Below, one piece after another: positions 5,754 to 36,740 of a stretch of DNA of 37,438 nucleotides (positions are counted from its first letter, which is position 1; each line of letters starts with the position of its first letter). The notes below the pieces were generated by a model that worked only from the letters and a program-made list of their open reading frames with translations, was not told the DNA's origin and ran no database searches. The position numbers and the translations under genes are program-made. Source of the DNA: Opitutus sp. GAS368 (GTDB lineage Bacteria; Verrucomicrobiota; Verrucomicrobiia; Opitutales; Opitutaceae); the NCBI GenBank assembly GCA_945871085.1, contig CAMBVX010000022.1, positions 1 through 37,438 of the forward strand. The letters are read 5' to 3'.

Positions 5754-6026
5754 TTACTTCGCGACGTGACCGGAGACGAGCTTGGTCATCTCGAACATCG
5801 AGACGGCCTTCTTGCCACCGAAAACGACCTTCAACTTGTCGTCGGCATTGATCTGGGTGCGGACCTTCTTGTCCTGCAGACCATTCTTCTTGATGTAAGC
5901 CCAGAGCTTCTTGGTGAGCTCGGTGCGTGGGAGCGGGGCTGCACCAACGACGGCCGCGAGAGCGGCGTCTGGCGTGACCGGTTTCATGAACGCTGCGTTT
6001 GGTTTACGTGCTGCTTTTTTAGCCAT
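5754..6026 (-). CDS. SWIB/MDM2-domain protein
   Basis: A 90-residue basic protein consisting almost entirely of one SWIB domain. A short Lys/Ala-rich tail (MAKKAARKPN) is followed by PLPRTELTKKLWAYIKKNGLQ and ends with the typical VFGGKKAVSMFEMTKLVSGHV. The SWIB fold is best known from eukaryotic chromatin remodelling. In Chlamydiae and Verrucomicrobia it occurs as small stand-alone proteins or fused to topoisomerase I, where a chromosome-associated role has been proposed. The function here is inferred, not shown. ATG at 6026 fits the family start. A GTG at 6062 would add 12 residues. The gene stands alone, with its own terminator (5702-5735) and a structured leader (6050-6076). Confidence 0.93.
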   Translation of the reverse strand: MAKKAARKPNAAFMKPVTPDAALAAVVGAAPLPRTELTKKLWAYIKKNGLQDKKVRTQINADDKLKVVFGGKKAVSMFEMTKLVSGHVAK

Positions 6027-6049
6027 AATGTTATTTTTGTTGGGTTTTT

Positions 6050-6076
6050 CCTCTAGGAACACGCCCGTTCTAGAGG
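6050..6076 (-). promoter_or_regulatory. Leader hairpin upstream of the SWIB gene
   Basis: On the minus strand CCTCTAGAA (plus 6068-6076) can pair with TTcCTAGAGG (plus 6050-6059, one bulged base) around an 8-base loop. The 3' arm holds AGAGG, the most Shine-Dalgarno-like sequence before the gene, although it lies about 22 bases from the ATG. A second direct copy of CCTCTAGAA lies at plus 6112-6120. The structure is seen in the sequence; a control function is only a guess. Confidence 0.35.
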
Positions 6077-6130
6077 GAAAAACGCCCCCTTGCCTAGGAG
6101 AATCTTCAACTTTCTAGAGGCATTTTCCTC

Positions 6131-10001: not shown

Positions 10002-10402
10002 GCGAATCGCCACCCTACGCGCACGATCCGACGGCGCACGTATTTTTTTCCGAACCTGGGCCGGGCGCAGGTCACGTTCTTGCGCGTTCGGCGCACTGCC
10101 TGGGAAGGGCGCTGGCCATTGTGGGGCTGGGCTTATCCCCCTCGGCATTAACCTCACGCCATGGCCCTCGTGTTTGCCCTTGCGAGGGAGGCTCTGCCGA
10201 CCGCGGCAACCCAACTGGATGGCTTCGTCAGTGCACTCCGGCTCGTGAACACAAAGGATTGGTCCTGGCGAAGGTGCCCAAGCGACTGCGGCCATCCCAG
10301 TTTGTCATCGCGCGGAGCGAAGCGACGTGGCGATCCCTCTGGAATTTCAGCTGGCTTGCCACAGTCGGCCAGCCTCCTTCGCAATGACAAGCGGTGCCAC
10401 CA
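10002..10402. other. Intergenic region with no gene, containing a dispersed repeat
   Basis: This 401-bp stretch separates the ABC exporter pair from the secreted protein gene at 10403, both on the minus strand. I see no credible coding sequence. The promoter for the exporter genes should lie in the part next to 10001, but no convincing -35/-10 pair stands out. The distal part holds the repeat described at 10301-10391. Confidence 0.6.
10301..10391. repeat. Dispersed repeat of the TGTCATTGCGAGGAGCG type
   Basis: TTTGTCATCGCGCGGAGCGA at 10301-10320 is followed by AGCGACGTGGCGATCC. The element closes with CGCAATGACAA near 10380-10390, which is complementary to its beginning apart from one base. 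A related copy (TGTCATTGCGAGGAGCGCAG) is at 25114-25148. Similar sequences occur between genes in many bacterial genomes. I infer a mobile or REP-like repeat. Confidence 0.65.
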
Positions 10403-11068
10403 CTATCTACGCTGCGCCGGCTGCTGGCCGGCGCTGGGCAAGTTGGGCGGCGGCTGGCGCGCCTGCATCTGCTGCTGTTGCATCGCTTGCTGTAACTGCT
10501 GGTGAGCCGGTGTCGGCGGCTGATTGATCTGCTGCGACGCCTGCTCGCGCAGCGCCCGGCGACGAGCGACTTCCGAGGCCACGGCCTCGAGCCGGCGCGC
10601 TTCATCGGCCGGCGTCGGGTTGACCACTACGGCCTGCGTGACCGCCTGCGGCAAATTGGTCATTTGAGGTGGAGGCGGCGGGATATTTTGCATCGCCGAA
10701 CCGGACGACACCACTTTCGACACCCGCTGGGCCAACGTCAGCGTCCGCCCCTGGTGTTCGATCACGAGAGTCTCACTGGCGGACGTAAACTGTTTGGCCA
10801 CCACGTCGAGGGTGGCGTCACGCTCGTTGAGCTTCACCCACACCCCGGATTTGCGCGCCGGATCATACAGGCGAAACCGCATCCCCTCGGATGTCTCCAT
10901 GAAGCCGCGAAACTCAATCGGCGCACCGACGGCCGGCACATTGGCCGCCGCCGCAGAAGGTGGCATGAACGGTGACGCTGACGGTTGCGCCGCCGATTCG
11001 ACCGCAGCCAATCGCCCCAAACCCACGAGGGCCAAACAACGGAGAGACATCAGAGTGCGGGGAGACAT
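10403..11068 (-). CDS. Secreted hypothetical protein with Gln-rich tail
   Basis: A 221-residue protein with an N-terminal hydrophobic segment ending near the AESAAQPSAS-like region (VESAAQ), consistent with a signal peptide and export. A compact domain of about 90 residues follows (GAPIEFRGFMETSEGMRFRL, then WVKLNERD and LTLAQRVSKV), which looks like a small beta domain. The C-terminal third is Pro/Gln-rich and predicted to be disordered (QQAMQQQQMQARQPPP). I do not recognise a named family. It resembles small exported proteins linked to secretion or pilus systems, but that is only an impression. ATG at 11068 is the first start giving a signal-like N-terminus; a second ATG at 11050 is also possible. 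It lies downstream of the broken mgtE gene on the same strand. Confidence 0.75.
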   Translation of the reverse strand: MSPRTLMSLRCLALVGLGRLAAVESAAQPSASPFMPPSAAAANVPAVGAPIEFRGFMETSEGMRFRLYDPARKSGVWVKLNERDATLDVVAKQFTSASETLVIEHQGRTLTLAQRVSKVVSSGSAMQNIPPPPPQMTNLPQAVTQAVVVNPTPADEARRLEAVASEVARRRALREQASQQINQPPTPAHQQLQQAMQQQQMQARQPPPNLPSAGQQPAQRR

Positions 11069-11139: not shown

Positions 11140-12509
11140 TCACAGCAACGTTCCGCGCATGATAAGATAGGCCACGCTGAAATAGCTGATCAGCCCCGTC
11201 CCATCGACGAGCGTCGCGACCAACGGCGCGCTCGAAGTCGCGGGGTCGAACCCGAGGCGTTTTAGCACCAGCGGGAGCATCGAGCCCAGCAAGGAAGCCC
11301 AAAGCACGAGGCCCACGAGCGCGAGTCCGACGGTGAGGGCCACGAGCATCCAGTCGGGTCCGTAGACCGAGGAAAACATCGACCAAATCCCGATGCGCAA
11401 AAAGCCGATCGCGCCAAAAATCAAGCCCAGGGCGGCGCCCGCCGCATGATTCTCCACCCGTCGCGCAACGGAAATTCGCCCAGCGCCAGCGCGCGAATGA
11501 CCAGCGTCGCCGCCTGCGAGCCCGCATTGCCGCCGGAGCTGATCTCCAGCGGAATAAAGAGCGAAAGCACGACGACCTTCTCCAACTCACCCTCGAAATA
11601 ACCCATCGCCGTCGCGGTGAACATCTCGCCCAAAAACAGCACGACCAACCAACTCGCCCGTTTTTTCACCATCCGCGACAGCGCGAGGGTCGTGGAGGGT
11701 TCATCGAGAGCCTCGCTGCCGCCGAGCTTTTGGATGTCCGCGGTCGCCTCTTCATCCGCCACATCGAGCATGTCGTCGATCGTCAGAAGGCCGATGATCC
11801 TCCGATTTTCATCCGTGACCGGCAGCGCCACCCGGTCGAATTTCCGCAACAAGCCGGGCGCCTTCTCACGGTCGTCCAACGGCGAGAGCATCGTAAAATT
11901 GCCGGCGAGCAGCGCCGCCACTGTGGCGTCGGGCGCCGCAAGAAGGAATCGCCGCACCCGCACATCGTCGATCAGCTGCCCGTCGGCCTCGACCCCATCG
12001 ACCAGGTTGAGCGTCTCGCGGTCGTAACCGTGCTCCCGGATAGAATCGAGCGCCTCGCGCACCCTCCACTCTGCGCGTACCCCAACAAAATCCAGCGTCA
12101 TCATTCGGCCTACGCTGTGCTCGGGATACACGAGGAGCGCCGGCGCGACCTTTCGCTCGTCCGGGGGTCAGCCTCGCCCGCATCTGCATCGCCACGTCGA
12201 GCGCCAGTTCGTTGAGAAACGCCGTGCGCTCATCGGGCGGCAGGGCGTTCAGCAACCCCGCCGCCTGCGCCTGCGTGAGCATCTTCAGCAGCTTCTTCTG
12301 CGCCTTGAGCGGACCGCAGGTAAAGATCGTCGCCTCGAGTTCACGCGACCCCACGCGAAACAAAGCCGCCAACTCCTCCACCGACAGCTCGGCAATCAAC
12401 GGCGCAAGATCAGCTGGCAACCACGGCTCCAGATATTTTTTAGGGCCCCGAGAGCCTTGCGGGCGAGGCGTGCCGTGATTTCGGCTTTGACGTTGGGCTG
12501 AGCGGACAT
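11140..12509 (-). pseudogene. mgtE: MgtE-type magnesium channel, three reading-frame breaks
   Basis: Pieced together from three frames, this encodes a near full-length MgtE (about 455 residues). It has an N-terminal domain (KYLEPWLPADLAPLIAELS), two CBS domains (including RRIIGLLTIDDMLDVADEEA) and a membrane domain with the hallmark IPLEISSGGNAGSQAATLV. Break 1 is at the A run at plus 12436-12441, where MSAQPNV...LGALK would need one more A to continue into KYLEP. Break 2 is at the G run at plus 12163-12167, one base too many between RARLTP and DERKVAPALL. Break 3 is near plus 11440-11450, between RDGWRIMRR and GAALGLIFGAIGF, where about four residues also seem to be missing. No in-frame stop or large deletion was seen. 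It is either a recent pseudogene or local assembly error. In an intact form it would be a Mg2+-gated inner-membrane Mg2+ channel. Confidence 0.85.
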
Positions 12510-12614: not shown

Positions 12615-13571
12615 ATGCGCCGCCCACTCTTCCCTCTGACCGCCGCCGCGCTCGCGCTCCTCGCTCTCGCCGCCTGCTCCCGCCCGGCCCCGGTCGGCTG
12701 GCAAGGTTATCTCGAAGGGGACTTCGTCTATGTCGCCTCCCCCCTCGCCGGCCGGCTCGAAACGCTCGCGGTCATCAAAGGTGCGCGGGTCGCCGTCGAT
12801 GCCCCGCTCTTCACCTTGGAACGGGCCAATGAACTCGCCGCCCAACGCCAGGCCACCGACCAACTCCACGCGGCCCAAGCCCGCCTCGCCGATCTGAAAA
12901 AAGGTTCGCGCCCCAGTGAACTCGCCACCCTCGAAGCCCGCCTCGCCCAAGCACGCTCCAGTGCCGAGCTCTCAAAACTCGAACTCGCCCGCCAAGAAAA
13001 TCTCTTCCAGACGAACGTCATTGCCGCCGCCGACATCGACCGCGCTCGCCTCACCCACGAGCGCAACACCCGCGCCATCGACGAACTCGCTGCGCAACTC
13101 ACCACCGCCGGCCTCGGCGCGCGCAGCGATGCCCTCGCCGCCGCCGCCGCCGAGGTCAGCGCCGCCACCGCCGCCCAGGACCGCACCGACTGGAACGTCA
13201 CCCAAAAATCCCAGTCCGCGCCCCGCGCCGCCCTCGTCTACGACACCCTCTACCGGGAGGGCGAATTCGTCGTCGCCGGTCTGCCCGTGGTCGCCCTGCT
13301 GCCACCGGAAAACATCAAGGTCCGTTTCTACGTCGCCGAGTCCGACTTCGCCGCACTGCAAGCCGGCGACACCGTGCGCATCGCAATCACCGGCCGCCCA
13401 CCCCTCGCAGCGCGTATCAGCTACCTCTCGCCCAAGCCTGAATACACGCCACCGATTCTCTACAACCGTGAGAACCGCGCGAAACTCGTCTGGCTCGTCG
13501 AAGCCCTTTTCACCGACTCCGCCGCCGCCCGCGACCTCCACCCCGGCCAACCCGTCGACGTGCAAAAGTAG
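12615..13571 (+). CDS. HlyD/YbhG-like membrane-fusion lipoprotein
   Basis: A 318-residue periplasmic adaptor of an ABC-2 efflux system. It begins with a lipoprotein signal (LALLALAAC, Cys21), followed by a biotinyl-lipoyl-like hairpin half (FVYVASPLAGRLETLAVIKG). A long Ala/Gln/Glu-rich coiled-coil region spans about 70-195, and a beta-barrel-type domain (VRFYVAESDFAALQAGDTV) follows. The order adaptor, ATPase, permease matches ybhG-F-S of E. coli. ATG at 12615 is preferred over an upstream start at 12579 because it gives a clean lipoprotein signal. It is transcribed divergently from mgtE, with 105 bp between the starts, so both promoters must lie there. It is followed by the ATPase after 45 bp. 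Confidence 0.9.
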   Translation: MRRPLFPLTAAALALLALAACSRPAPVGWQGYLEGDFVYVASPLAGRLETLAVIKGARVAVDAPLFTLERANELAAQRQATDQLHAAQARLADLKKGSRPSELATLEARLAQARSSAELSKLELARQENLFQTNVIAAADIDRARLTHERNTRAIDELAAQLTTAGLGARSDALAAAAAEVSAATAAQDRTDWNVTQKSQSAPRAALVYDTLYREGEFVVAGLPVVALLPPENIKVRFYVAESDFAALQAGDTVRIAITGRPPLAARISYLSPKPEYTPPILYNRENRAKLVWLVEALFTDSAAARDLHPGQPVDVQK

Positions 13572-15904: not shown

Positions 15905-16141
15905 ATGCAGACCCTCTCCGTTAGTAAACTCACGAGCAAAAGCCAGGCGACCATCCCCGGGCGTGTGCGTGAGAAACTGCGGCTCAAACCGGGCGACTCC
16001 GTCGCGTTTAAGTTCCGCGACGGCCACATCTTCCTCCAGAAAGCCCGGCCCGCCGACCACGTGTTCGCCAAAGCCGTGGTCGAAACGCTGAGCGACGAGT
16101 GGCATTCGGCCAACGACGAGCGCGCCTACCGTGACCTTTAA
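15905..16141 (+). CDS. MazE/AbrB-family antitoxin
   Basis: A 78-residue protein with an N-terminal SpoVT/AbrB swapped-hairpin domain (SKLTSKSQATIPGRVREKLRLKPGDSVAF), followed by a short acidic helical tail that should bind and neutralise the toxin. It would bind its own promoter, possibly the palindrome at 15877-15893. Its last 11 bases overlap the GTG start of the PemK/MazF gene, the tight coupling typical of type II toxin-antitoxin modules. The sequence is full length for the family, with no sign of decay. Confidence 0.9.
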   Translation: MQTLSVSKLTSKSQATIPGRVREKLRLKPGDSVAFKFRDGHIFLQKARPADHVFAKAVVETLSDEWHSANDERAYRDL

Positions 16142-16469
16142 GGCCTTCGAGGTCGTCGTCGTCCCATTTCCCTTCACGGACAGCGCGGCGACCAAGCGGC
16201 GGCCCGCGCTCGTGCTCTCCGCGCAGGGCTTCAACGACCGCGCCGCGCACCTCGTGCTGGCGATGATCACGAGCCACGAAAACCGCGGCTGGCCGCTCGA
16301 CGTGACACTGCTCGACCTCAAGGCGGCCGGGCTGAGTCACCCTTCGGTGGTGCGGATGAAGATCTTCACGCTCGACGAGCGCTTTGTGCTGCGAAAGGCA
16401 GGTGCGCTGGCCGCTCCTGACCGCGCAGCCGTCCGCCGCACGCTCGCGATGCTGCTGCCAGCAGATTGA
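16131..16469 (+). CDS. PemK/MazF-family toxin (endoribonuclease)
   Basis: A 112-residue toxin of the PemK/MazF family, which cleaves mRNA at short sequence motifs. The N-terminal beta strand with VVVVPFPFTD, then KRRPALVLSAQGFN and the later SHPSVVRMKIFTLDE, match the family core. The Arg in KRRPAL and the Ser/Thr region of the SHPS segment are in the positions usually linked to catalysis. The start is GTG at 16131, overlapping the antitoxin by 11 bp. Length and motifs are intact, so the pair is probably functional. The stop codon runs directly into a REP-like hairpin at 16469. Confidence 0.9.
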   Translation: MTFKAFEVVVVPFPFTDSAATKRRPALVLSAQGFNDRAAHLVLAMITSHENRGWPLDVTLLDLKAAGLSHPSVVRMKIFTLDERFVLRKAGALAAPDRAAVRRTLAMLLPAD

Positions 16470-36055: not shown

Positions 36056-36066
36056 ATACCAACGTC
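36056..36066. repeat. ATACCAACGTC motif copy
   Basis: This 11-mer recurs in reverse orientation at 2842-2852, and 10 of its bases recur at 2759-2768. It lies between the terminator and the 25-bp hairpin. It may be the edge of a dispersed element. Confidence 0.4.
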
Positions 36067-36086
36067 CTTTGAACGCTGGACTTTTT

Positions 36087-36144
36087 GGTAGCCGCGAGCG
36101 CCAGCGAGTGGACGGATCACCACTCGCTGGCGCTCGCGGCTACC
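36087..36144. repeat. Perfect 25-bp hairpin with 8-base loop
   Basis: The left arm 36087-36111 begins GGTAGCCGCGAGCGCCAGCG. The right arm 36120-36144 is its exact reverse complement over 25 bases, around the loop ACGGATCA. Flanking GGACTTTTT and CAAATCAAAGTC suggest a further imperfect extension. Cruciform- or REP-like; the GGTAGC end is shared with the element at 14579. Confidence 0.9.
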
Positions 36145-36740
36145 CGGCAAATCAAAGTCTGAAGCTTTTGGGCGATTGAGATAAATCCCGTCGCGCCCAG
36201 CGGTCGCTGCGCGACCCGCATGGGTCAAACCCACGTCAGCCGTTGGTCTCACTCACCCAGCGGGCCCTCGGCTCTTGCGGATCGTTTACCTCAAACGACG
36301 CTATCGCCCCCTGACCGCGCGGACAAAATCGGCCGCACTCGCGATCGACTCGCGCCGCGTAGTGATCGCGGCTGGGATGGGCGCATCTGATCCACGCACT
36401 CCCGGTCTCGGGGAGCGGCGTGGCGTAGGCGCAGTCGGTTCCACAGGGCAGGGAAACCCCCGCGAGAAAAGATCCATTAATTACGCTCACGGCGGAGGTC
36501 ATATCGTTTTGGTTGAACGCCAACGCTTGGGCCGTGGCCGACGCCACGCAGTCCCTTGTCGATCGGTCGAAGCCGCCGAGGCGTGCGGGTGAAACATCAA
36601 CCCATTCGCGGCCCACGCCGTGCGGCTCCGGCCAGCCGTCGGCGACACCGCAACCAAGCCCATGATCCCGTGGTGGCGAAATCGCGCGGCGCGACGGTGA
36701 GCGCTCGGTGACCCACCCCGGGGCGTCGCGCGTGCCGCCA
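36145..36740. other. About 600 bp without a convincing gene
   Basis: Open frames of up to 126 codons exist on both strands (for example minus 36236-36616), but none has a recognisable motif, a clear ribosome site or the codon pattern of neighbouring genes. The sequence may be the decayed 3' part of a former gene downstream of the cytochrome, but I cannot show this. No RNA gene was recognised. Confidence 0.5.

Follow-up and report, generated by a model that had tools for sequence, protein, structure and literature searches.

The window (the whole stretch of DNA analysed, 37,438 nucleotides) is contig C22 of a draft genome of 7.37 Mb in 630 contigs from Opitutus sp. GAS368, an organism whose habitat we guess to be fresh water; plasmids gave no match to the window. 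It carries an mgtE gene, for a magnesium channel, beside a divergent gene for an HlyD-type membrane fusion protein. This copy was compared with nine members of the genus, its own genome included, among which G002 provided the intact MgtE reference (373 residues, cut at a contig end). The features of the locus are the following.

12509-11140, minus strand: very probable mgtE pseudogene, from the ATG at 12509-12507 to the stop TGA at 11142-11140
12615-13571, plus strand: HlyD-type membrane fusion protein gene, intact and divergent, marking the locus
10403-11068, minus strand: downstream neighbour, intact, 221 codons
12509-12438, minus strand: 5' piece of mgtE, first 24 residues (tblastn with G002 MgtE)
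12163-12441, minus strand: in-frame piece with the MgtE_N domain (Pfam PF03448, 1.4e-11)
11439-12164, minus strand: in-frame piece with CBS and the start of the membrane domain (PF00571, 4.9e-8; PF01769, 5.6e-7)
11140-11445, minus strand: in-frame piece with the remainder of the membrane domain (PF01769, 2.7e-19)
12436-12442, minus strand: lesion 1, one base lost between CCT and AAAAAA (DNA alignment)
12161-12167, minus strand: lesion 2, one base gained, CCCCCGG (tblastn and DNA alignment)
11434-11444 (near 11439), minus strand: lesion 3, a 13-base deletion (DNA alignment)

An intact mgtE has approximately 460 codons, and the window copy, interrupted by three indels, offers no single open frame for the full protein. 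The G002 protein matched the window in four collinear segments with three changes of frame (residues 1-24 at 12509-12438, 24-116 at 12441-12163, 116-357 at 12164-11439 and 360-373 at 11445-11404). The frame that begins at the ATG runs into a stop at 12398-12396, after 37 codons. At lesion 3 the 13 bases are absent, relative to related genomes, after ATGCGGCG (about 11439), and the frame upstream of this point stops at 11423-11421. The original prediction, which described an mgtE split by three frame changes, is confirmed by these four tblastn pieces and by the three indels in the DNA alignment, and the frame change with about four missing residues that it reported at the third break corresponds to the 13-base deletion. 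For the second break it proposed a C5 run with one base too many; one base is indeed extra, but it may be a G rather than a C because three of the four aligned relatives read CCC before the GAC at this site, with CCT in G002.

In twenty-six other genes of the window (approximately 9,200 codons), the examined stretches are open; they are the parts aligned to relatives and not entire genes. These genes were picked by hand, 25 from the listed alignments to relatives and one (15905-16138) from the list of open reading frames. Since they are open, three frame changes in a single gene are more than chance. A second candidate for a frameshifted gene near 5760-6115, presumably SWIB-like, was rejected, as its frame is open and the second match lies upstream of its start; manual inspection assigned the remaining frame-change matches in the window to shadow frames, tandem paralogues or adjacent genes. 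The region 15905-16466 contains a gene which we take to be AbrB-like and an overlapping second gene, a pair that is conserved in G001 and, from its sequence, is perhaps a toxin-antitoxin system.

The order of genes around mgtE (msbA-like, the 221-codon gene, mgtE, hlyD, ABC genes) is conserved, and the 221-codon neighbour had no Pfam match. The hlyD gene of this locus is present in eight of the nine genus members, the window's own genome included, and G004, a genome 83% complete, gave only a weak hlyD match. Related hlyD genes were found at 14 named loci, 12 of which are MAGs whose titles name Opitutae, Opitutus, Opitutaceae or Verrucomicrobia; the two least similar belong to Desulfovibrionaceae and Hyphomicrobiales. 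Outside the genus, an intact mgtE adjoins hlyD in L003, L005, L010, L067 and L072 (L003 and L072 may be one record), no mgtE was found beside hlyD in L070, L071, L073, L074 and L075, and the flank of L069 is too short to judge its presence.

Within the genus, mgtE is undamaged through codon 373 in G002 and through codon 140 in G005, the points at which these contigs end, and the contigs of G001 and G003 end within hlyD, with mgtE beyond reach. Three other members have lost the gene in different ways. G006 has an internal, out-of-frame deletion of about 0.7 kb with AGG aligned to the start codon, G007 retains only degraded ends with CGG in the start position, and in G008 mgtE is gone from the locus. 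Neither lesion 1 nor lesion 2 of the window occurs in G006, in which the place of lesion 3 is itself deleted, and the window copy lacks the large deletion of G006. Compared with the G006 deletion, the one in G007 starts far closer to the beginning of the gene; at the opposite end G007 retains, as judged by eye, a few bases that are deleted in G006, so that the two would be separate events. A tree built on five neighbour genes, with DNA as well as with protein sequences, groups the window with G001, G003 and G008, and G006 with G007, each with 100% support; the placement of G002 versus G005 is uncertain. As no lesion is seen to be shared, at least two inactivations of mgtE in the genus look independent on these alignments, and an earlier cause common to them may have left no trace.

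Several further observations concern this region and its surroundings. The mgtE remnant of G007 (L058 14850-15300, contig C9) carries 44 polarised changes versus 8 in the G006 remnant over 296 aligned bases, roughly five times as many; of those in G007, 28 are T to G, T to C or the complement of one of these. The contigs L033, L061, L062 and L063 (from G002, G005, G003 and G001, respectively) all end inside mgtE or the 5' part of hlyD, a clustering that perhaps reflects strain variation at the locus. Two families of dispersed repeats were examined as a cause of the mgtE deletions and rejected, as both lie outside the gene. The first is a REP-like palindromic repeat at 36056-36188 with perfect 25-base arms (36087-36111 and 36120-36144), found at 92-98% identity in at least 42 further places of its own genome and once in G006, and probably undercounted because 40 of 195 candidates were scored. 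The second, of approximately 90 bases at 10300-10391, has at least 60 matches in its own genome, itself included, and some of these matches lie on both strands of one place. Apart from the self-match, identities are 72-94%, with 40 of the 126 candidates scored.

The window gene also bears a load of missense changes. Invariant columns were defined as those in which at least seven of nine intact orthologues are present and all alike, each orthologue being tested against the remaining ones. The window copy differs at 26 of 249 such columns. G002 differs at 0 of 201, and the eight remaining orthologues differ at 1-16 of 254-269; the value of 16 of 269 belongs to G011, which is intact but more distantly related. 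The altered residues occur in every piece, all along the gene. It had been claimed that all MgtE domains were present and well conserved in an otherwise healthy gene. The Pfam domains are indeed found, in the order N, CBS, membrane across the second to fourth pieces and all over the Pfam cut-off, but with this number of changed invariant residues the gene is not healthy.

Rates of change point in the same direction. In three-taxon comparisons with five outgroups, replacement change was 0.077-0.083 on the window branch versus 0.023-0.029 on that of G002 (2.7-3.6 times higher), whereas synonymous change was similar (0.245-0.301 versus 0.226-0.281), and the bootstrap intervals of the replacement difference excluded 0 in all five cases. 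With G005 as the sister (138 codons) the direction was the same but the difference weaker, one of the five intervals reaching below 0. In the five neighbour genes, the ratios of replacement change between the window and G002 were about 0.7-1.7 (outgroups L067 and L071). Selection is therefore relaxed on the window branch of mgtE and not on the neighbour genes, an effect that is weaker with G005 as the sister. By a rough estimate, the gene would have been free of constraint during approximately the final fifth of the branch that follows the G002 split; this date is rough because synonymous change is near saturation. The split between the window and G008 falls at 0.62-0.83 of the same branch by synonymous change, and it is on the rough date of the window inactivation that the loss in G008 is counted as a third inactivation.

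The changes at the first and second codon positions of the window mgtE include an excess of A:T to C:G (21 of 63, versus 33 of 239 in the neighbours; Fisher p 0.0007). At the fourfold sites of the neighbours where the compared genomes agree, 1018 are G or C versus 9 that are not. Because these sites are nearly all G or C, unconstrained sites should drift to G/C, and the excess is likelier to come from released sites drifting in this way than from base-call errors. A base-call error motif behind the changes was sought by eye and rejected, with no common context or clustering seen. At the fourfold sites of the window branch, exchanges between C and G, in either direction, number 181 versus 51 for C to T and G to A.

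The window mgtE thus bears disabling lesions relative to intact orthologues, and it is very probably a real pseudogene that arose by ordinary gene loss. On this reading from comparative sequence data, the ancestral mgtE would have stood divergently beside hlyD, as it does in relatives today, and in the window lineage its function would have been lost and two one-base indels, the 13-base deletion and many missense changes would have gathered. Reading from the ATG would yield approximately 37 residues, and we infer that the gene gives no MgtE product. The loss was probably tolerated because a CorA magnesium transporter remains. CorA (PF01544) scores over the cut-off in all nine genus members and, in a wider set of 57 genomes, in 35, with MgtE (PF01769) found in 32. 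As all nine members keep CorA, redundancy probably permits the loss of mgtE. Among bacterial Mg2+ transporters, CorA and MgtE are described as primary, and the majority of bacteria as possessing several transporters (PMC5122736). Nor is altering MgtE necessarily costly, as a missense change in mgtE of Vibrio cholerae shortened the generation time by roughly 6% under laboratory conditions (PMC10127744).

The strongest alternative is that the organism has an intact mgtE and that errors of sequencing or assembly, in a region that assembles poorly, produced the three indels. The fragmented state of the draft would favour such errors, as would the four congener contigs which end in mgtE (G002, G005) or 5' hlyD (G001, G003), and the A:T to C:G excess could also stem from base-call errors. 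However, no other broken gene was seen among the 26 others examined on the same contig, lesion 3 is a deletion of 13 bases and no homopolymer miscount, and the A run at lesion 1 has the same length as in two relatives that are in frame. The missense changes at invariant sites are spread along the whole gene, and related genomes carry large deletions at the same locus. We consider this explanation unlikely. The original prediction had left the choice between pseudogenisation and local assembly error; the differing damage in congeners, the changed invariant residues and the raised replacement change favour the former and make the latter less likely. That the pieces function as separate short proteins is highly improbable: Pfam domains are still recognised in those of 93, 242 and 101 residues, but the membrane domain is interrupted and lacks some residues, every piece has altered invariant residues and related lineages delete the gene.

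Least probable of all, to the point of being negligible, is a programmed -1 shift used to make MgtE, which had been offered as a possible explanation of the first break. In its favour, an A-AAA-AAT heptamer is correctly placed in the reading frame, and slipping back one base on it leads into KYLEPW. The frame change and slippery site are not conserved, as G002, G005, G006 and G031 are all in frame at this position. At the A run, G002 and G005 read GAAGAAATAC and GAAGAAGTAC (TTG AAG AAA TAC and TTG AAG AAG TAC, respectively), and G006 and G031 share the six A's (TTG AAAAAA TAC), none of them with a change of frame. Since in-frame relatives also have six A's, the A run of the window is not shown to be short, and a homopolymer miscount behind lesion 1 was set aside as unneeded. 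Judging from the alignment, the Leu codon may instead have lost its third base; loss of an A would mean that this codon was CTA, which accounts for 11 of 1013 Leu codons among the remaining window genes taken. The 91 bases from the slippery site onward fold only slightly better than shuffled sequences (z -1.53, with 16 of 200 shuffles equally good), and a literature search found nothing joining mgtE with programmed frameshifting. The product would still be broken by lesions 2 and 3 downstream, so programmed slippage explains nothing.

Gene loss being the preferred reading, the genus most likely shows the loss of mgtE caught at different stages. It is possible, and we put it forward tentatively, that repeated, independent losses of the gene are under way at one conserved locus (in the window, in G008 and in the G006/G007 pair), perhaps reflecting a burden of MgtE in the habitat besides the redundancy with CorA, in which case the contig ends could mark polymorphic populations. 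A literature search by title found no report of mgtE decay in Opitutae. The analysis removes a candidate for programmed frameshifting and offers a clear example of the decay of a primary magnesium channel across several related lineages that retain CorA. In annotation, the mgtE pieces are best marked as one pseudogene.

Compared with known systems, the window gene keeps the domain order of an MgtE channel (PF03448, PF00571 and PF01769), and its pieces are 71-82% identical to G002 MgtE (58% over the first 24 residues), with intact close orthologues at 68-87%; it differs from such a channel in lying in several frames, with three indels and 26 invariant residues changed. Programmed -1 frameshifting uses sites of the form X-XXY-YYZ, and the window heptamer has this shape in the right frame, but such a shift is not needed in the in-frame relatives, the RNA from the site onward folds only slightly better than shuffles and the window has two extra lesions. 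The indels, missense load, raised replacement change and deletion in relatives are those of a bacterial pseudogene, or of gene loss in progress, and from this known kind we see no difference.
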